A DNA stretch of 44,340 nucleotides, from contig JAQULH010000008.1 of assembly GCA_029004215.1 (NCBI GenBank), positions 1-44,340 on the forward strand. The letters are read 5' to 3'. Source of the stretch: Patescibacteria group bacterium (GTDB lineage: Bacteria > Patescibacteriota > Patescibacteriia > 2-12-FULL-60-25). Under the pieces are notes generated by a model. It did no database searches, was not told where the DNA came from, and saw nothing but the letters and a program-made list of their open reading frames with translations. Below are positions 36,728-44,340 of the stretch, piece by piece. The position numbers and the translations under genes are program-made. Every line of letters starts with the position of its first letter. The stretch's first letter is position 1.

Positions 36728-37807
36728 ATGAAAGTCGGTTTAGACCTGCGGTGCTTGCCAAGTGATGGCTCTGAAGGGGCTGGCGTGGCGCATGCAGCCA
36801 GGGCTTTGTGTTCCCAATTGATTAAGGAAAAGCCCATTAATTGGCAGGCTTTTGTTGTTAAAGGCAGTGCTTGGCAAGCAAGTCCTAAGTACGAATTAGC
36901 GGATGGCCAAAGCAAGACTTTGAAAAAAGCTTTGGGTGAAAATCCTTGCGATATTTTATTTGTTCCATCTGGTGCAGTCAGTTATGGTCTGGATATTCCA
37001 GCTATTCCTTGGGTGCATGATTTGATAATTTTTGATCACCCGGAATGGTTTCCGGAATCCTGGTTGCATCGTCAGTTAACTACTCATCTTTTTTTGCGAG
37101 GCATCAAGCAGGCGCCAATCGTCTTTGCTGTTTCCGAATATACCAAACAAGCCATCATCCGCCACGCACGAGTCACTCAAGAAAAAGTGATGGTCACGCA
37201 TGAAGGGGGAGACGGACAATTAACAATTAACAATGAACAATTAACAATTAAAAAGTCCGCTTCTGAATATTGCCGCGGCAAGTGGGGGATAGAAGGTCAA
37301 TTTATTTTGGCTTTAGGAACAGTTGAGCCTAGAAAAAATTTAGCGATGCTGATTAGGGCTTGGAAAAAGTCTGGAGGAGCATTAGATTTAGTTATTGCAG
37401 GTCGAAACGGCTGGAAGTTTGAAGATGTGACTCGAGAGATCAAAAGTTTGACGTCCGATGAAGCATCGAGGTTTCACCGTATCGAAGATTTTAATGATGA
37501 TGATAAACGCCAACTCTTGTTGGCCGCCAGTATTGTCGCCGTCCCATCGCTGGATGAGGGTTTTGGTCTCGTGGCGCTTGAAGCTTTGCAAGCGGGGACT
37601 GATGTCGTCGCCTCAAATCGTGGTGCATTGCCCGAAATTGTTGGTCAGGCTGGAATATTGCTTGACCCTGAGGATGAAAAGGCTTGGGCAGAAGCACTCA
37701 ATCGAATCTCGAAGCTCGAATCTCGAAGCTCGAGTACAGAACAAGCTCAAAAATTCAATTGGGAAAAGACGGCTGGAGTTGTTTTGGAGGGGCTGAAAAA
37801 ATTGTAA
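36728..37807 (+). CDS. Glycosyltransferase family 4 (GT-B)
   Basis: A 359-residue GT-B enzyme. N-terminal domain starts KVGLDLRCLPSDGSEGAGVAHAA; the C-terminal donor-binding domain has LALGTVEPRKNLAMLIRAWKK and the EX7E motif in SLDEGFGLVALEALQAGTDVVAS. It likely adds a sugar to a surface glycan or lipid. Two heptamer arrays are embedded in frame: one encodes QLTINNEQLTIKK between the two domains, the other RISKLESRSSS in the C-terminal helix. Both sit at positions where the fold tolerates insertions. Confidence 0.9.
   Translation: MKVGLDLRCLPSDGSEGAGVAHAARALCSQLIKEKPINWQAFVVKGSAWQASPKYELADGQSKTLKKALGENPCDILFVPSGAVSYGLDIPAIPWVHDLIIFDHPEWFPESWLHRQLTTHLFLRGIKQAPIVFAVSEYTKQAIIRHARVTQEKVMVTHEGGDGQLTINNEQLTIKKSASEYCRGKWGIEGQFILALGTVEPRKNLAMLIRAWKKSGGALDLVIAGRNGWKFEDVTREIKSLTSDEASRFHRIEDFNDDDKRQLLLAASIVAVPSLDEGFGLVALEALQAGTDVVASNRGALPEIVGQAGILLDPEDEKAWAEALNRISKLESRSSSTEQAQKFNWEKTAGVVLEGLKKL
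37217..37251 (+). repeat. In-frame heptamer array inside the glycosyltransferase gene (CAATTAA units)
   Basis: Five units: CAATTAA, CAATTAA, CAATGAA, CAATTAA, CAATTAA. Translated as QLTINNEQLTIK between the N- and C-terminal domains. The unit is a rotation of the AATTAAC unit at 2174. Confidence 0.8.
37704..37731 (+). repeat. In-frame heptamer array inside the glycosyltransferase gene (GAAKCTC units)
   Basis: Four units alternating GAATCTC and GAAGCTC. Encodes RISKLESRSSS near the C-terminus. The same units occur in parB at 43358. Confidence 0.8.
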
Positions 37808-37838
37808 AAAAAGAAGCGGTCAAGAGTGCTTGAACCGC
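37808..37838 (-). terminator. Terminator of the minus-strand orphan gene
   Basis: On the minus strand GCGGTTCAAG (37829-37838), CACT loop, CTTGACCGC (37816-37824), then CTTC and T7. It also lies right after the glycosyltransferase stop on the other strand. Its 3' arm nearly repeats that of the terminator at 39678. Confidence 0.75.
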
Positions 37839-37849
37839 CAGGCGTGTCC

Positions 37850-38749
37850 TTAGGCCGCGGACACGGTTGCTCCTGCTTGGGAGCGTTTCTTGGCCAACCG
37901 GCGCACATTGCGCACATTACGGAAGTGCGCAGCCAGGTGCATCAGGATCAGCCCTTCTTGGTTGACGTCTGCCAGAGTGGCCGTTTCGAGGGCTACTCCT
38001 TCGCGCAGGTGATTGACCGCAAACCATCGATCCTGCTTGCAAAGCTCTGTCAGCGGGCGCCTCTTGCGAAGCTGTCGCCGTCGCCGGTGCCGTAGGCCAG
38101 CCGACGGAATGCACTTGCTGAGCTGCATGGCAGAGTAAAGCTCATACGCCAGCAGCTCGACCGTCTCGGATGTGGCATTGAAGCAGTACCTGATCTCGTG
38201 CGACTCGCGTTGCCATCCGGTAGAGGCTCGGTAGAGTTCGTCCCAGGCTCGACGGTAATGGGCCTGCCCGATCAACCTGCGAACGCGCCGCAGCCAGTAG
38301 GCATCGGTGTTCAGGTGGGCGGCCACCAGGGCATACTCGTCATCTGAGATCATCTCCTGCATGGCAGGATGTTCGATGATGAGGGCCAGGTCATCTGCAT
38401 CCAAGATCAGCTCGCGCACGATGCTGGGAGAGATGGTGTAGAGCGGTCGCCCGTCTCTCTTGAGAGCGAACTCGACGGAAAAGAGCGACATGAGTTCCAT
38501 GACGAACTTGGGTCGACATTCCGCGCCTTTTGTCAGCCGGTTCAGTTCCCTGAGCAGGTCATGCCTGCGAGGGCAGAAGGGCACGCAACGCAAGGCGGTT
38601 TTTGGCCCGTGGGATTGCAGGATTTCTTGGATGGCCAACTTGGCCAGTTCCAAATCGCGGACCGATGAGAGATCGAGCGAATCGATGGCGTACGCCAACA
38701 GGCCTTTGTTTTCCTCTGCCTTCTCTGCTTTTTCTGCTTCTGACAGCAT
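37850..38749 (-). CDS. GC-rich orphan helical protein, unknown function
   Basis: A 299-residue, mainly helical protein not assigned to a family. It starts with an Ala/Glu/Lys-rich segment, has a middle part rich in Leu/Glu/Arg (REIYRAS-like), and a strongly basic cluster near residue 220 (HRRRRQLRKRR). A textbook AGGAGG lies 6 nt before the ATG, and third positions favour G/C, unlike core genes here. A TTGACT-16 nt-TACAAC promoter on the minus strand is plausible. It may be DNA- or RNA-binding, judged only by charge. Confidence 0.7.
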   Translation of the reverse strand: MLSEAEKAEKAEENKGLLAYAIDSLDLSSVRDLELAKLAIQEILQSHGPKTALRCVPFCPRRHDLLRELNRLTKGAECRPKFVMELMSLFSVEFALKRDGRPLYTISPSIVRELILDADDLALIIEHPAMQEMISDDEYALVAAHLNTDAYWLRRVRRLIGQAHYRRAWDELYRASTGWQRESHEIRYCFNATSETVELLAYELYSAMQLSKCIPSAGLRHRRRRQLRKRRPLTELCKQDRWFAVNHLREGVALETATLADVNQEGLILMHLAAHFRNVRNVRRLAKKRSQAGATVSAA

Positions 38750-38855
38750 GGCTGCCTCCTATCCCAAAAGGGGACAATGTGGAGTTGTACTGCGCTTATA
38801 AGCCAAGTCAAAGGACGGGTTTGGAAAATACCTTAAAATCTGTCCAATGTCAAGG

Positions 38856-38884
38856 TTGCCAAAAGGCGGGGAATGGGTTATATT
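38856..38884 (+). promoter_or_regulatory. tRNA-Met promoter
   Basis: TTGCCA (38856-38861), 17-nt G-rich spacer, TATATT (38879-38884); the tRNA starts 20 nt downstream. Same -10 and G-rich spacer as rpsL and tuf. Confidence 0.7.
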
Positions 38885-38903
38885 GCTCCCGCAAAAAACA
38901 TGG

Positions 38904-38980
38904 GGCGAGGTAGCTCAGTTGGTTAGAGCGTGGGACTCATAAGCCCAAGGTCGTGGGTTCGATCCCCACCCTCGCTACCA
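38904..38980 (+). tRNA. tRNA-Met (CAT), elongator type
   Basis: A 77-nt cloverleaf with encoded CCA. D arm GCTC/GAGC, anticodon loop CTCATAA with U33, T arm GTGGG TTCGATC CCCAC. The acceptor opens with a G1-U72 wobble and the base of the anticodon stem has an A31-G39 mismatch. It lacks the C1-A72 mismatch of an initiator. A CAT anticodon could also be an Ile2 tRNA if C34 is lysidinylated; elongator Met is more likely. Confidence 0.9.
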
Positions 38981-38981
38981 T

Positions 38982-39009
38982 AAAAAACACGGTAAAAACC
39001 GTGTTTTTT
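38982..39009 (+). terminator. Terminator after tRNA-Met
   Basis: AAAAAACACGG (38982-38992), TAAAAA loop, CCGTGTTTTTT (38999-39009): 11-bp perfect stem with T6. Confidence 0.9.
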
Positions 39010-39059
39010 CGTTATATTTTGTCAGCTAAACCAGGCCAGCCATGGCCAACCTCCTTGGC

Positions 39060-39088
39060 TTGACATTTAGGCTTAAAACTGGTAAAGA
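39060..39088 (+). promoter_or_regulatory. Promoter of the orphan gene at 39142
   Basis: TTGACA (39060-39065), a perfect -35, 17-nt spacer, TAAAGA (39083-39088). A leader of ~45 nt ends in GGAGGAGG before the ATG. Confidence 0.55.
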
Positions 39089-39141
39089 ACAAGCCATCGG
39101 TGCACCTTCCACTTCGGCGTGAAGTCGGGAGGAGGTAAAAA

Positions 39142-39645
39142 ATGGGAGTTATTGCTAGCCTGAAAGAATGCAGAGAGCAGCGTAGACGGCAGAAGATGAG
39201 GCCGCCTGAAGGCAGGCGGTATAAGAAACCTCATCCTCCAACCTGCTTGAGCTCTACTTGGTTCAAAAAGCACGGGCCTCTGAAGGCCCGGATCACCAAG
39301 AACAACGATTTGTTCCTCGAACACGACTACTTCCGCTTCATGCCCGATATGGTCATTGGTGACCTGTTGGAGCGTGGCATTGTCGTGTACTTCGCCGGCG
39401 AAAATCGGCTTGGGCTGGAGCACAAGCTCCACTGCCTGATAGGCAATGACCATGTAGTCAAGCAACTCGTAGCCAGCCCGGGTATCAAGGTGCCCAAGAA
39501 GGTTACGAAGCTTCTCATCGTCATGCAGTTCGGCAAAAAAGAAGAAGACAGGGACGTCTTAGTCGATGACGAAGATGATGAGTGCACGTATCAGGAACTG
39601 CTCATCTGCGAAGTGAGCACCATCCTCGATTCGCGCGCCATCTAG
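39142..39645 (+). CDS. GC-rich orphan protein with strong ribosome-binding site, unknown function
   Basis: A 167-residue protein. The first ~50 residues are very basic (KECREQRRRQKMRPPEGRR), the middle is strand-rich (MPDMVIGDLLERGIVVYFAG), and the last ~35 residues are acidic (DRDVLVDDEDDE). GGAGGAGGTAAAAA precedes the ATG, the best Shine-Dalgarno in the window. Together with its own -35/-10 and terminator it is a self-contained expression unit. No homologous family is recognised. Confidence 0.7.
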   Translation: MGVIASLKECREQRRRQKMRPPEGRRYKKPHPPTCLSSTWFKKHGPLKARITKNNDLFLEHDYFRFMPDMVIGDLLERGIVVYFAGENRLGLEHKLHCLIGNDHVVKQLVASPGIKVPKKVTKLLIVMQFGKKEEDRDVLVDDEDDECTYQELLICEVSTILDSRAI

Positions 39646-39677
39646 CTCCTTGTCTGCCTAGGGCAATGGCCTACTCG

Positions 39678-39713
39678 GCGGTTAAAGCATCCAGCTTGAC
39701 CGCTTGTTTTTTT
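39678..39713 (+). terminator. Terminator after the orphan at 39142
   Basis: GCGGTTAA-A-GC (39678-39688), ATCCA loop, GCTTGACCGC (39694-39703), then TTG and T7. The 3' arm and T tract almost copy the terminator at 37808 (CTTGACCGCTT then T-rich). Confidence 0.8.
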
Positions 39714-39720
39714 AGCAAAA

Positions 39721-39749
39721 TTGGATTTTTCCCACACCTGGTTTATAGT
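39721..39749 (+). promoter_or_regulatory. Promoter of the ATP-PPase/AlaRS-like/reductase operon, leaderless
   Basis: TTGGAT (39721-39726), 17-nt spacer, TATAGT (39744-39749). Transcription would start at 39756-39757, the first base of the ATG, so the first gene is probably leaderless. Confidence 0.6.
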
Positions 39750-39756
39750 GGAATAT

Positions 39757-40461
39757 ATGGATAAGAAGATTGCCGTAATGTTCAGCGGAGGTAAAGACAG
39801 CTGTTATGCACTCCAATCGGTCTTGAAGACTGACCCGATCGAATTTATGATTAGCGTCATTTCAGACAATGGCGATACCCATCTGCATGCAGGACCCGAG
39901 ATTGATAGTGGGCTGAGGCAGATCCAACTCGAACTCTTGGGGTTGCCTTATAAAATAGTCAAAGTCGGATCGGGCGAGAACTATCTTCATGAACTTTTTG
40001 TGGCTTTGAATAAACTTGTCAAAGAAAACGGAATAACCCATCTTGTGACTGGAGATCTTTGGCATCCATATACGACCGGTATTGGTGATATGTTGGCTGG
40101 AGCCTTAGGCGTCAAGATTATTAGACCGGCCAGGGAAGCATGCGCATCGAGATCAGAAGACACGGCTTTTATGGAAAAAGTTCTTGCTTCAGGCGTCCGT
40201 TCAGTCATAATCAGCGTTCGCGACGGTGATTTGCCAAAAGAATATGTCGGACGAGAGATTGATGAGCCTTTAATTCAAAAATTAGTTTCATTAGGTGTAG
40301 ATGCGGCGGCTGAAGGAGGGGAATACCAGTCATTTGTCGTATCTTGCCCGCTTATGAAAAATCAGATAGTTATAGATGACTTTAGAGTTGACTTAGTTGA
40401 TGGCAAGAATGGCAAGGAGAGATTCCATCGGATGTTCGTTAACCGCTATCACGTTGTATGA
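39757..40461 (+). CDS. Dph6-like ATP pyrophosphatase (diphthine-ammonia ligase family)
   Basis: A 234-residue PP-loop protein. The adenylating P-loop FSGGKDSCYA is at residues 9-18, HLVTGDLWHPYTTGIG lies mid-protein, and the family hallmark EGGEYQSFVV (EGGE-type loop) is near 188-197. Dph6 enzymes activate a carboxylate with ATP and amidate it with ammonia; in eukaryotes and archaea they complete diphthamide, but bacteria have no diphthamide, so the acceptor must be another carboxylate. Gene 1 of a coupled trio; overlaps gene 2 by 4 nt. The ATG at 39757 is preferred over one 12 codons upstream that lies in the promoter. Confidence 0.85.
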   Translation: MDKKIAVMFSGGKDSCYALQSVLKTDPIEFMISVISDNGDTHLHAGPEIDSGLRQIQLELLGLPYKIVKVGSGENYLHELFVALNKLVKENGITHLVTGDLWHPYTTGIGDMLAGALGVKIIRPAREACASRSEDTAFMEKVLASGVRSVIISVRDGDLPKEYVGREIDEPLIQKLVSLGVDAAAEGGEYQSFVVSCPLMKNQIVIDDFRVDLVDGKNGKERFHRMFVNRYHVV

Positions 40462-41426
40462 AGACCTGGTCTTGGCTCAGTAATAAACTCAATGCTTTCC
40501 ATCGCCCAATTTCGCACGTGATTAAGGGATTCTCGCCCATGGCTGGCAGTCAGTTTCCAGGAAATTTCAATGTGAGCGGTTTTCATGATCAAATTCTTAA
40601 GTTGCCGGATCACCCGTCGGCTATTTGGGGAATCGATCGATGTCTGCGCATAAGAGAGAAGGTAGACGCTTGTCACTCATATGTCTTTCACATGGGCATT
40701 TTCGCGCAAAGCGTTGATTTGAACGGTGATTTTAGAGAGCCATGGAAGGATATTCGATTCCATGTGTTGCAAAAAGAAATTTTAGACCAGTTTTTTGCTC
40801 TTCTTAATTTATTAGGTGTCGATCATAAATCATTGGAGTTTACCTATCTGGCTGGTGTTAATTTTGAAGGGTTGAAGAAGAAGTATTATCTGCCCGAAGA
40901 TATTGTTTCAAAGAAATATTTGAAAAAGCTCTTGATAAAATCTTTCCCAGTCCATTCACCTGCGAATATCGATGCTGTTAATATTGAAGGAGCTTTAGTC
41001 GGATCGCGATTGGAAGTGGCAAGTAATGGGATTGAAATTGGCACGATCGTTTTTGACTGTTTTAAGGTGAAAAAAGGTAAGTTGGTTCCTATTAATTACG
41101 TCGGTGGATATGCGCTTGGGATGGAACGTCTGCTTTGCTCAGTTAATGGTGGTGACTTTATTCGATCGATTGGACGTTATACACAGGCAGGGAAGAAGCT
41201 TTTTAAAAAAGTAAAAGCAGTGCAATCCATTTTGTTAAAGGACGATGTGCTGGGTTTTCTTTTCGGAACAGAAGCTTTGGCTTGTGTTCCCGACAGTCTA
41301 GCTCGTGGTCAAAAAGAGCTGGTGCGCCGTTTGAAAAAGAATTTGAAAGAATATGAAATAAATTTAGGGTTATCCCAGAAAGATACAGATACATTCATAA
41401 CATATTTTAAACAATGGAAATCTTAA
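40458..41426 (+). CDS. Stand-alone class II synthetase core resembling alanyl-tRNA synthetase
   Basis: A 322-residue protein. IDRCLRIREKVDACHSYVFHMGIFAQS (residues ~60-85, in parts) aligns with AlaRS motif 2 (QRC.R..K......HHTFFEMLGN); the helix WKDIRFHVLQKEILDQFFALL follows as FKKEAI.FAWEFL does in AlaRS; LEVASNGIEIGTIVFDCFK and GGYALGMERLL (216-226) match the LEI.N.VF and GMGLERL motif 3. The tRNA-binding, editing and C-terminal AlaRS domains are absent, and the AlaRS N-terminus is only partly recognisable. It could activate an amino acid and pass it to a protein or small molecule. Overlaps its neighbours by 4 and 13 nt. Confidence 0.75.
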   Translation: MKTWSWLSNKLNAFHRPISHVIKGFSPMAGSQFPGNFNVSGFHDQILKLPDHPSAIWGIDRCLRIREKVDACHSYVFHMGIFAQSVDLNGDFREPWKDIRFHVLQKEILDQFFALLNLLGVDHKSLEFTYLAGVNFEGLKKKYYLPEDIVSKKYLKKLLIKSFPVHSPANIDAVNIEGALVGSRLEVASNGIEIGTIVFDCFKVKKGKLVPINYVGGYALGMERLLCSVNGGDFIRSIGRYTQAGKKLFKKVKAVQSILLKDDVLGFLFGTEALACVPDSLARGQKELVRRLKKNLKEYEINLGLSQKDTDTFITYFKQWKS

Positions 41427-42184
41427 TCATGGGCAGCAAAGGTCTGCTCGGGGCAGAATTGGCTAGACTGGGCGGACGAGACGGCCATAAGATTTTTGCT
41501 TTTGATAAAGATGGGCTCGATATCACTGACGAGGCAGCGATTGAAGAATTTTTTAAAACCCATTCCCCGAAAGTGGTAATAAATTGCGCAGTTGTATCTC
41601 CAAAGGCGTGTGAAGAGAATCCGGGACGTGCCTATCAAGTGAATGTCGAAGGCGTAAAAAATCTACTCAAACATAAGAGCTCGGCTTTATTAATCCAGTT
41701 TTCCAGTCCAGCCGTATTCGACGGAAATTTACCTTTGCAAAATATTCAGTACTCAGATAGCCCAGAGGTAGGCTATAAAGAAAACGATCAGGTGAATGCC
41801 ATCTCAGTTTATGGAAAGACAAAAGCGGAGATGGAAAAACTTCTTAATGGCACTGATAACCTGATTCTACGAACCTCTTGGGTTTATTCCAAGACAAAAC
41901 CTTTCGGCCTAGCGGATGCCCCGCCCTTTCCTTTGAACGAAATTGGTCGTCCTACTTATACTGAGGATATCTGGAAATGTATAAACGTCCTCTGGCTTGA
42001 AAAGTTAACTGGATTGTTCCATGTCTGCGGCCCTGAGGTTATGTCCAGACATGAGCAAGCCATGAGATTATTTGGGAATGTCGAACCATACTCGCTTCCT
42101 AAAGATAACATCCGTCCGTTATCAATTGGTAAAATTTATCCGTATTTGGTTAAGAATTCGGTTTCTCTGACCAAGTGGGGTTGA
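41414..42184 (+). CDS. RmlD-like NAD(P)-dependent reductase/epimerase (extended SDR)
   Basis: A 256-residue SDR. Nucleotide-binding MGSKGLLGAELARLG, VINCAVVSPKACEENP, catalytic-type YGKTKAEME (YxxxK) and RTSWVYSKT match dTDP-4-dehydrorhamnose reductase and its MAT2B-like relatives. No other rhamnose genes (RmlA-C) are here, so dTDP-rhamnose is not implied. The gene overlaps the AlaRS-like gene by 13 nt, arguing for a shared pathway. It ends before a bidirectional terminator. Confidence 0.85.
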   Translation: MEILIMGSKGLLGAELARLGGRDGHKIFAFDKDGLDITDEAAIEEFFKTHSPKVVINCAVVSPKACEENPGRAYQVNVEGVKNLLKHKSSALLIQFSSPAVFDGNLPLQNIQYSDSPEVGYKENDQVNAISVYGKTKAEMEKLLNGTDNLILRTSWVYSKTKPFGLADAPPFPLNEIGRPTYTEDIWKCINVLWLEKLTGLFHVCGPEVMSRHEQAMRLFGNVEPYSLPKDNIRPLSIGKIYPYLVKNSVSLTKWG

Positions 42185-42226
42185 GGTCCCTCGATTCCGT
42201 CTCGTCCAACTCATTACACTCAGGAC

Positions 42227-42262
42227 AAAAAAATAAACCGCAGGATTGCGGCTTATTTTTTT
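42227..42262. terminator. Bidirectional terminator between the reductase gene and initiator tRNA
   Basis: AAAAAAATAA-A-CCGCA (42227-42242), GGAT loop, TGCGG-C-TTATTTTTTT (42247-42262): 15 base pairs with one mismatch. A7/T7 ends make it work in both directions; its last base is the first of the tRNA's CCA complement. Confidence 0.9.
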
Positions 42263-42337
42263 GGTTGCGGGGGTCGGACTTGAACCGACGACCTCCAGGT
42301 TATGGGCCTGGCGAGCTGCCAACTGCTCTACCCCGCG
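42262..42337 (-). tRNA. Initiator tRNA (fMet, CAT) with C33
   Basis: A 76-nt cloverleaf on the minus strand, CCA encoded. Initiator features: C1 x A72 unpaired, typical GCAACCA end, T arm GTCGG TTCAAGT CCGAC. The anticodon stem is CCAGG/CCTGG, so the three initiator G-C pairs read A29-U41, G30-C40, G31-C39. The anticodon loop is CCCATAA, with C in place of the near-universal U33. All arms pair, so it is not obviously a pseudogene. Confidence 0.93.
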
Positions 42338-42376
42338 TTACGCGAAACATCAAACGAAATTCAAACACCGAGCAAT

Positions 42377-42405
42377 AAACTACCATGCGCCGGTTTTAGT
42401 GTCAA
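42377..42405 (-). promoter_or_regulatory. Initiator tRNA promoter
   Basis: Minus strand: TTGACA (42400-42405), 17-nt spacer, TAGTTT (42377-42382). Perfect -35. The tRNA begins ~40 nt downstream. Confidence 0.65.
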
Positions 42406-42436
42406 TGACGCAGATTTATCGCCCAGAAGCATCCCC

Positions 42437-42465
42437 TTGTCTTTAACCGTTGGGACATCTAATAT
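42437..42465 (+). promoter_or_regulatory. parAB promoter
   Basis: TTGTCT (42437-42442), 17-nt spacer, TAATAT (42460-42465). The ParA ATG is 11 nt after the -10, so the leader is almost absent. It is arranged back-to-back with the initiator tRNA promoter. Confidence 0.65.
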
Positions 42466-42475
42466 ATAGGCGGTT

Positions 42476-43258
42476 ATGGCACGCATAATTGGTATTGTGA
42501 ACCAGAAAGGGGGAGTGGGTAAAACCACCACTGCCGTGAATTTAGGCGCGTATCTGGCTGACTTGGGAAAGTTCGTTTTGATCATTGATCTTGACCCGCA
42601 GACCAACGCCACATCGGGTATTGGCATTGACCAACGCAATATCGAGCGCAGCGTATATGAGGCCATCTTAGGCAAAGTGCGCATGAGTGAGATTGTACAG
42701 CCTACCATGCACGAGACTTTGCGTATTGCTCCCGCTACCTCGTCTTTGGCCGGCTTGAACGCTGAGTTGCCCAACATGGAGAGGCGTGAATACAAGCTCC
42801 ACGAAGCATTGCGCGAGGTCAGGAATGATTATGATTATATTTTGATTGATTGTCCGCCGACTTTGGGTTACATTACATTAAACGGCATCGTAGCTTCTGA
42901 CGAGATTTTGATACCGGTCCAGGCTGAGTATTACGCACTCGAAGGTTTGGCTGATTTGTTGGAAACGTTGAAGCTGGTCAAAGAACGTTTACGTCCCGAT
43001 ATTCAGATATTAGGCGCTGTGCTCACCATGTACGACAAGCGCACTAAACTTTCTAACGACGTGCTACAAGAACTTTATAAGTATTTCCCCAATAACATTT
43101 TCCGTTCGGTTATCCCGCGCAGCGTGCGTTTGGCAGAAGCTCCTTCCTTTGGCCGGTCGATTGCGGCTTTTGATCCGGATAACATGGGAGCCAAGGCTTA
43201 CGAGCGTTTGGCCAGAGAAGTCTTAGGGACAGAAATTTTTGTACAAACACAAATATGA
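42476..43258 (+). CDS. parA: Chromosome partitioning ATPase ParA (Soj)
   Basis: A 260-residue deviant Walker ATPase. Walker A' IGIVNQKGGVGKTTTAVNLGAYL, switch I IDLDPQTNATSG, Walker B DYILIDCPPTLGYIT. It lacks a DNA-binding N-terminal extension, as chromosomal Soj-type ParA does. With ParB it drives origin segregation. It overlaps parB by 4 nt. Chromosomal parAB commonly lies near the origin. Confidence 0.96.
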   Translation: MARIIGIVNQKGGVGKTTTAVNLGAYLADLGKFVLIIDLDPQTNATSGIGIDQRNIERSVYEAILGKVRMSEIVQPTMHETLRIAPATSSLAGLNAELPNMERREYKLHEALREVRNDYDYILIDCPPTLGYITLNGIVASDEILIPVQAEYYALEGLADLLETLKLVKERLRPDIQILGAVLTMYDKRTKLSNDVLQELYKYFPNNIFRSVIPRSVRLAEAPSFGRSIAAFDPDNMGAKAYERLAREVLGTEIFVQTQI

Positions 43259-44211
43259 TGCTTAAAAGACCATCAGGACTCGGTAGAGGATTGGGTGCGC
43301 TGATTCCTCCCAAACAACCAATTTCTCAGCCTTTTGCGGACGAGGATCAGGAAAATCGAAGCTCGAATCTCGAAGCTCGAAGCTCGGATAACGAAAGTCC
43401 GGAGAGTGAGGCCCAGCTGTCTGATATTATCGAATCAGTCCACCGCATACCTGTGGGTTTGATATCGCCTAACCCGCATCAGCCGCGTGAGCACTTTGAT
43501 TATGCAGCGCTCGAGGACTTGGTTTCATCCATCAAGGAACACGGCATCTTGCAACCGCTAGTCGTCTCGCCTCTGCCTGACGGGCGCTATGAGCTGATTG
43601 CTGGCGAGCGTCGCTTGCGGGCAGCTAAGATTGCTGAAATGCCGGAAGTTCCGGCCATAGTCCGCACGGTCAACGAGCAGCAAAAGCTGGAGATGGCCAT
43701 TATCGAGAATGTCCAACGCAGGGATTTGAATCCAATCGAAGAAGCGCGCGCTTATTTGCGGTTGCATGAAGAGTTTGACCTGACGCAGGACCAGATAGGG
43801 GAGCGCGTGGGCAAAAGCCGTCCGCAAGTCGGCAATACCATGCGCCTTTTGCAACTTGAGCCGGAAATTCAGAGCGCTTTGGCCCAAGAAAAAATTTCTG
43901 CTTCCAATGCCAGGACATTACTCTCAATCCCAACCAAGGAAGAACGCTTAGAGCTGTTCCAGCGCATGTTGGATGGTAACTTTACTGTTCGCCAGGCAGA
44001 AGAACATATTCCGCAGGACCGCCGGCGCATTAAGATTGTTGACCCGAATATAATGGATATGGAGTCACGCATGCGCGGATTTTTCGGCCTCAAAGTCAAC
44101 ATCAAACGTCAGCCAGACGGCCGCGGTGAAGTTAAGATTGCTTTTGAAAACGACGAAGACCTCAGCAATATCGTCAATCGAGTTTCGGCAACTGGGCAAG
44201 TTGAACTCTAA
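43255..44211 (+). CDS. parB: Chromosome partitioning protein ParB (Spo0J)
   Basis: A 318-residue CTP-dependent DNA clamp. GLGRGLGALIPP at the N-terminus contacts ParA; IPVGLISPNPHQPREHFD and YELIAGERRLRAAKI (GERRxR) form the CTP-binding ParB/Srx domain; the helix-turn-helix lies in TQDQIGERVGKSRPQVGNTMRLLQL. The ~45-residue linker before the core holds an in-frame heptamer array (ENRSSNLEARSSDNE). No parS-like palindrome was found in the window. Confidence 0.96.
   Translation: MMLKRPSGLGRGLGALIPPKQPISQPFADEDQENRSSNLEARSSDNESPESEAQLSDIIESVHRIPVGLISPNPHQPREHFDYAALEDLVSSIKEHGILQPLVVSPLPDGRYELIAGERRLRAAKIAEMPEVPAIVRTVNEQQKLEMAIIENVQRRDLNPIEEARAYLRLHEEFDLTQDQIGERVGKSRPQVGNTMRLLQLEPEIQSALAQEKISASNARTLLSIPTKEERLELFQRMLDGNFTVRQAEEHIPQDRRRIKIVDPNIMDMESRMRGFFGLKVNIKRQPDGRGEVKIAFENDEDLSNIVNRVSATGQVEL
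43358..43385 (+). repeat. In-frame heptamer array inside parB (GAAKCTC units)
   Basis: GAAGCTC, GAATCTC, GAAGCTC, GAAGCTC in register. Encodes RSSNLEARSS in the flexible linker between the ParA-contact peptide and the CTPase domain. Same units as the glycosyltransferase array at 37704. Confidence 0.8.
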
Positions 44212-44213
44212 AC

Positions 44214-44340
44214 TTATTTGTTCTTGGTCTTCTTCCTCATGGCATGAGGGATAACGCCTTTGATCCAATTCGCCAGACCCGCGCGGGCATACTGGCGGAT
44301 TTTGCTTTTAGCATGTCTTGTCTTGGCAAACCTAAGCCAG
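44214..44340 (-). CDS. C-terminal fragment of an unknown basic protein
   Basis: A minus-strand frame open to the window edge ends at 44214 with TAA. The visible 41 codons encode a Lys/Arg-rich tail (RFAKTRHAKSKIRQYARAG ... IPHAMRKKTKNK). It is convergent with parB and only 2 nt from its stop. Too short to assign. Confidence 0.4.
   Translation of the reverse strand, partial: WLRFAKTRHAKSKIRQYARAGLANWIKGVIPHAMRKKTKNK

Follow-up and report, generated by a model that had tools for sequence, protein, structure and literature searches.

An accessory three-gene operon of a DUF71 protein, a truncated AlaRS-like protein and an RmlD-like reductase at a tRNA-Met insertion hotspot in a CPR genome

Within the window, by which we mean the whole analysed stretch of 44,340 nucleotides from a Patescibacteria (CPR) genome, three overlapping genes fill an accessory block beside a tRNA-Met gene (Table 1). 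They are referred to here as genes 1, 2 and 3. The trio is real, accessory and of unusual make-up; it is not a demonstrated system. We tentatively suggest, as a possibility we would not yet call probable, that it is an accessory cassette for carboxylate activation and metabolite tailoring, gained at the tRNA-Met hotspot in one CPR lineage. What appears to be new, as far as sequence comparison can tell, is a distinct DUF71 clade joined with an orphan AlaRS derivative, a combination found in no other genome searched.

Table 1. Features of the block and its surroundings, in positions of the window
Feature	Position	Strand	Basis or remark
Accessory block, 2.47 kb	39714..42183		exactly missing in congener G002, ~20 nt instead
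Candidate promoter TTGGAT-17 nt-TATAGT	39721..39749	+	weak match by eye; 7 nt before gene 1 ATG
Gene 1, DUF71/COG2102 PP-loop ATP pyrophosphatase, 234 aa	39757..40461	+	PF01902, SGGKDS
Gene 2, predicted truncated AlaRS-type class II core, 322 aa	40458..41426	+	profile/hhalign similarity, motif 3
Gene 3, extended SDR of RmlD type, 256 aa	41414..42184	+	PF04321, G-S-K-G-L-L-G, Y-G-K-T-K
Terminator-like bidirectional hairpin	42226..42263		17-nt arms, 94% complementary; outside block
tRNA-Met	42262..42337	-	3' end points to block; insertion hotspot in congeners

The operon layout described in the earlier note agrees exactly with the coordinates: genes 1 and 2 overlap by 4 nt (ATGA, with the gene 1 stop at 40461 and the gene 2 ATG at 40458), genes 2 and 3 by 13 nt (gene 2 stop 41426, gene 3 ATG 41414). 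The AT-richness remarked upon there is likewise borne out. GC amounts to 40-44% (0.44, 0.40 and 0.43 in genes 1, 2 and 3) and GC3 to 0.43, 0.38 and 0.42, respectively, compared with ~0.46-0.74 in most other long ORFs of the window. Homology to known families supports all three ORFs as real genes, and we accept them as such because of PF01902 (E=2.6e-29), the AlaRS profile (27.5 bits) and PF04321 (E=5.4e-42). A shared promoter and terminator had also been presumed. The promoter does exist as a sequence match, but a weak one that a program promoter scan of the locus did not report; mRNA starting from it would be leaderless or almost leaderless. The hairpin is present as well, but since G002, which is devoid of the trio, carries a different hairpin at the same position, it belongs to the ancestral locus and not to the cassette. 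Rfam matches in the window comprise two tRNAs only.

Congener G002 matches the window on both sides of the block, at 83% identity over positions 36939-39713 and at 89% over 42184-44339, and its parA protein is 100% identical to that of the window genome. A contig chimera as the source of the block is ruled out, because both flanks match G002 on one contig. Genes 1 and 2 were sought in eight congeners and neither was found in any of them (0/8), so gain in the window's lineage is the simplest reading. Together with the low GC and the exact empty site in G002, this sustains the earlier suggestion of a cassette-like gain, and the three-gene operon was probably acquired horizontally. No att site or target-site duplication was seen at the block ends.

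The neighbourhood of the trio consists of a 167-aa ORF, tRNA-Met and parA, with 78 nt between the block end and the 3' end of the tRNA-Met gene. This site is an insertion hotspot. In G001, a phage integrase lies 83 nt from the corresponding tRNA-Met, and a replication gene of filamentous-phage type is close by; in G003, the corresponding interval upstream of parA contains Schlafen AlbA_2 and Abi_C genes; in G002, it holds the 167-aa ORF alone.

Several further observations concern this region. Upstream of parA, the interval delimited by two tRNA-Met genes of opposite orientation (window 38904-42337) is variable across the genus and apparently near-empty in G004. At locus L024 (3386-6170), an integrase and a Phage_CRI (filamentous phage G2P-type) replication protein adjoin tRNA-Met in a CPR genome, which might represent an inovirus-like prophage. 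At locus L023 (6733-8491), a Schlafen AlbA_2 gene overlaps an Abi_C gene at the hotspot, and the two form a candidate defence pair. Outside the variable interval, a minus-strand ORF of 299 aa (window 37850-38749, GC3 0.71) has no Pfam match and is present also in G002.

Gene 1 belongs to the DUF71 family, reaching 102.8 bits against PF01902 (gathering cut-off 23.2) with its SGGKDS PP-loop and EGGE motif intact; its closest relatives of known structure are 2d13 and 3rjz. Members of this family carry Glu at position 188 in Dph6 and His in the DUF71-B12 type, and further functions exist (PMC3541065). Gene 1 reads EGGEYQSF, as opposed to EGGE(F/Y)E(T/S) in Dph6 and E(N/G)GE(F/Y)H in the B12 type. 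In an alignment of 84 rows (gene 1 and 83 relatives), position 188 is Glu in 78, among them the non-orthologous PP-loop protein L101, His in four and Gln in two; five further bacterial or phage relatives have His in 5/5 cases. Glu188 is thus found in 77 Dph6-like proteins of the alignment, almost all of them from archaea, and His188 in nine other proteins of bacteria or phages, counts that do not equal natural frequencies, because the set was chosen by sequence patterns.

The second Gln at this position, and the only other one among the aligned proteins, is that of L029 from Ca. Magasanikbacteria, a member of the same class as the window genome, with which gene 1 shares 61% identity. In both, the PLW motif of Dph6 is replaced by PAR, and RPARE is common to these two only within the aligned set. 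In a tree made without L101 they constitute a 100/100 clade with a branch length of 2.93, apart from the 77 Dph6-like and nine His proteins. We read gene 1 as a new branch within the Dph6-like ligases, Q188 being a third DUF71 signature. The Dph6-like character claimed for it earlier can be retained for the PP-loop and the DUF71 family, but not for Dph6 itself, as E188 is changed to Q and PLW is altered.

Could gene 1 nevertheless be a genuine Dph6 working on diphthamide, or a DUF71-B12 salvage enzyme? Its matches to PF01902 and to the archaeal Dph6 model and its solved relatives would fit. Against the Dph6 equivalog TIGR03679, however, it scores 103.6 bits, under the cut-off of 197.3; residue 188 is neither E nor H, PLW reads PAR, and the clade is separate. 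Diphthamide is absent from bacteria (PMC3541065), and no B12 transport or cbiB genes adjoin gene 1. With Q188, a score under the cut-off and the context missing, we rejected both roles and consider them extremely unlikely. As a separate observation, a His188-type DUF71 gene at locus L145 (1450-2169; genome G737, same class) lies amid radical-SAM-like genes, with no B12 genes beside it in the stretch covered.

Gene 2 has no match in Pfam, NCBIfam or PDB searches. Its only matches in whole-genome searches are AlaRS genes from CPR lineages other than that of the window (best E 1.6e-9), with ~30% identity to CPR AlaRS over residues 57-235. Against a profile built from seven CPR AlaRS cores it scores 27.5 bits, the best of 500 shuffles reaching 5.6, and hhalign aligns residues 37-235 to AlaRS with E 2.9e-6. 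This similarity is unevenly spread. Residues 161-240, the motif-3 region, obtain 21.3 bits vs <=1.5 in shuffles; residues 1-165 and 240-322 alone do not score above shuffles, and residues 50-85, with motif 2, take rank 2 of 501 including the shuffles. The motif-3 half can be firmly predicted to be of AlaRS type, and for motif 2 such an assignment is only plausible. Of the AlaRS-type core announced by the earlier note, the part over residues 161-240 is therefore strong, whereas the motif 1/2 half is weak.

In the AlaRS alignment, R224 corresponds to the motif-3 Arg, R64 to the motif-2 Arg and F77 to the motif-2 Phe, and the motif-3 Glu-Arg is retained. Because the N-terminal half scores like some shuffles, the keeping of ATP-binding residues is tentative. 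The alanine pocket is altered at two places. Asp235 of E. coli AlaRS holds the amino group of the substrate (PMC12143591), and its equivalent in gene 2 is G217; EIWN became EIGT, with T196 instead of Asn. The protein ends at 322 aa, without editing, tRNA-recognition or C-Ala domain. As a normal full-length AlaRS is encoded elsewhere in the window genome, gene 2 is dispensable for translation and free to differ. AlphaFold models from the single sequence and from a 13-row alignment had mean pLDDT of 36.1 and 39.4, too low to use.

Gene 3 is RmlD-like, just as had been proposed. It scores 144.3 bits against PF04321 (RmlD_sub_bind; cut-off 27) and possesses the nucleotide motif G-S-K-G-L-L-G and YGKTK as its YxxxK. 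Its 119.1 bits against the rmlD equivalog TIGR01214 are far under the cut-off of 224.05. The relatives found are ~30-41% identical, none above ~41% in the CPR sample.

Judged by our searches, gene 1 is rare. Genomes with any match number 2/380 in the phylum, 4/381 in the class and 2/86 in the order of L029, the window's own genome being counted where sampled. L029 itself is solitary, flanked by clpP-like and DHH-type genes, and no gene-2 relative was found in its genome. No orthologue of gene 2 turned up among 96 genomes of relatives, 380 of the phylum, 134 of the class and 16 others (sets that partly overlap), and none was found in collections of viruses, plasmids and phages. Peptide-pattern scanning, which requires exact short matches, was applied twice to 84,980 species genomes and likewise yielded none among the matches listed. 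Alignments with artificial rows served to steer the peptide patterns, and the query of the second scan was a chimera of gene 1 and gene 2 pieces with substitutions outside the chosen motifs; the chimeric query did recover L029 among the matches listed. Rare gene-2 orthologues may exist elsewhere. An AlaRS-like neighbour is missing from all 80 fetched DUF71 loci (0/80), and the trio was not detected a second time in the genomes searched. The earlier note had envisaged a new, conserved system and had itself named confinement of the trio to this genome as evidence to the contrary. The three genes were indeed found adjacent in this genome only, within our sampling, the nearest gene-1 orthologue stands alone and gene 2 is without an orthologue in the genomes searched; conservation as a system is not upheld.

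A possible model of trio function is as follows. The PP-loop enzyme encoded by gene 1 would probably adenylate a carboxylate and hand it to ammonia or an amine, in Dph6-like manner with another substrate. The AlaRS derivative, in which ATP binding is probably (and tentatively) kept and the alanine-holding residues are lost, would most likely activate an acyl or aminoacyl group other than alanyl, or transfer it, with a small molecule and not tRNA-Ala as the acceptor. The NAD(P)-dependent extended SDR of gene 3 would probably reduce or epimerise a sugar, a nucleotide sugar or a keto intermediate. The product might be a small molecule, or a building block for glycans, that has been amidated or aminoacylated. 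Two of the three families adenylate carboxylates and the third contains nucleotide-sugar and keto reductases; assembly or tailoring of such a molecule seems to us the most likely joint task. Against a joint pathway speak the lack of conservation of the trio, the solitary position of the sole close relative of gene 1, and the lack of any known substrate, carrier or fourth gene.

The same facts feed the alternative that three independent accessory genes merely share one transcript, with gene 1 acting alone and genes 2 and 3 as cargo. Its main argument is the solitary L029 in a genome without gene-2 relative, and no other fetched DUF71 locus has an AlaRS-like neighbour. The two tight overlaps, on the other hand, imply selected translational coupling and would rarely arise by chance in a recent insertion, so that we hold this explanation to be unlikely, though deserving serious consideration. 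The hotspot raises the idea of a defence or phage-conflict cassette, in line with what congeners carry at this spot (the integrase and filamentous-phage-type replication gene in G001, AlbA_2 and Abi_C in G003) and with the patchy presence of the trio; but PADLOC matches 0/3 genes and all three are metabolic-type enzymes, which makes it quite improbable.

Two more alternatives concern gene 2 alone. AcmF, an AlaRS-like aminoacyltransferase of ascamycin biosynthesis, is likewise truncated and exists beside a canonical AlaRS, and its changes N219Q and D232E (PMC12945691) fall at the two positions altered in gene 2, T196 and G217. An AcmF-like gene 2 would pass aminoacyl from charged tRNA to a small-molecule amine or sulfamate, ATP-free. 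Yet AcmF requires the acidic E232 where gene 2 has Gly, it has a tRNA-recognition domain (E374) whereas gene 2 ends at 322 aa with a C-terminus lacking significant AlaRS similarity, and it lost the ATP residues that gene 2 apparently keeps; we give this mechanism only a small chance. A decaying or regulatory, HisZ-like pseudo-enzyme supporting a neighbour gene would account for the lost substrate Asp and Asn, the failure to find orthologues and the weak N-terminal half. Such a role sits poorly with an intact frame of 322 codons that overlaps both neighbours and keeps the motif-3 Glu-Arg, and its prospects look slim.

We return to the metabolite-tailoring cassette as the preferred, if tentative, reading. 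Small genomes with little biosynthetic capacity are typical of CPR bacteria, and against this background the gain of a cassette that combines two ATP-dependent ligases with a reductase is striking. Q188 of gene 1 adds a third signature to the DUF71 family, which has functions beyond that of Dph6. An active gene 2 would be an AlaRS derivative that works independently of tRNA, something rarely met in nature; even with an inactive gene 2, the operon bears witness to a tRNA-Met hotspot at which cargo of phage, Abi/Schlafen and metabolic kinds is exchanged within a single CPR genus. That the trio constitutes a mobile CPR pathway leading to amidated or aminoacylated metabolites of a new class, combining an AlaRS core turned into a tRNA-independent non-alanine ligase with a third functional class of DUF71 ligase marked by Q188, is a bolder proposal and in our opinion an improbable one.

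Among known systems, Dph6 (PF0828, PDB 3rjz/3rk0/3rk1) and DUF71-B12 (PMC3541065) share with gene 1 the fold family, SGGKDS, EGGE and a similar length; gene 1 departs from them by Gln188, PAR for PLW, its long-branch clade and the missing diphthamide or B12 context. Compact CPR AlaRS (for example of genome G274, locus L003) resembles gene 2 in the motif-3 region and the strand-rich catalytic-core half; gene 2 differs in having no editing or C-Ala domain, EIGT for EIWN, and Gly in place of the amino-group-anchoring Asp. AcmF, compared by description, parallels gene 2 as a truncated AlaRS derivative that is additional to a canonical AlaRS and has two altered active-site positions, but it keeps an acidic residue and the tRNA-recognition domain and has different neighbour genes. 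Gene 3, finally, has the extended SDR fold, nucleotide motif and YxxxK of RmlD dTDP-4-dehydrorhamnose reductase and MAT2B (1vl0, 2ydx); unlike them it is shorter (256 aa), stays below the equivalog cut-off and has no rml genes adjoining.
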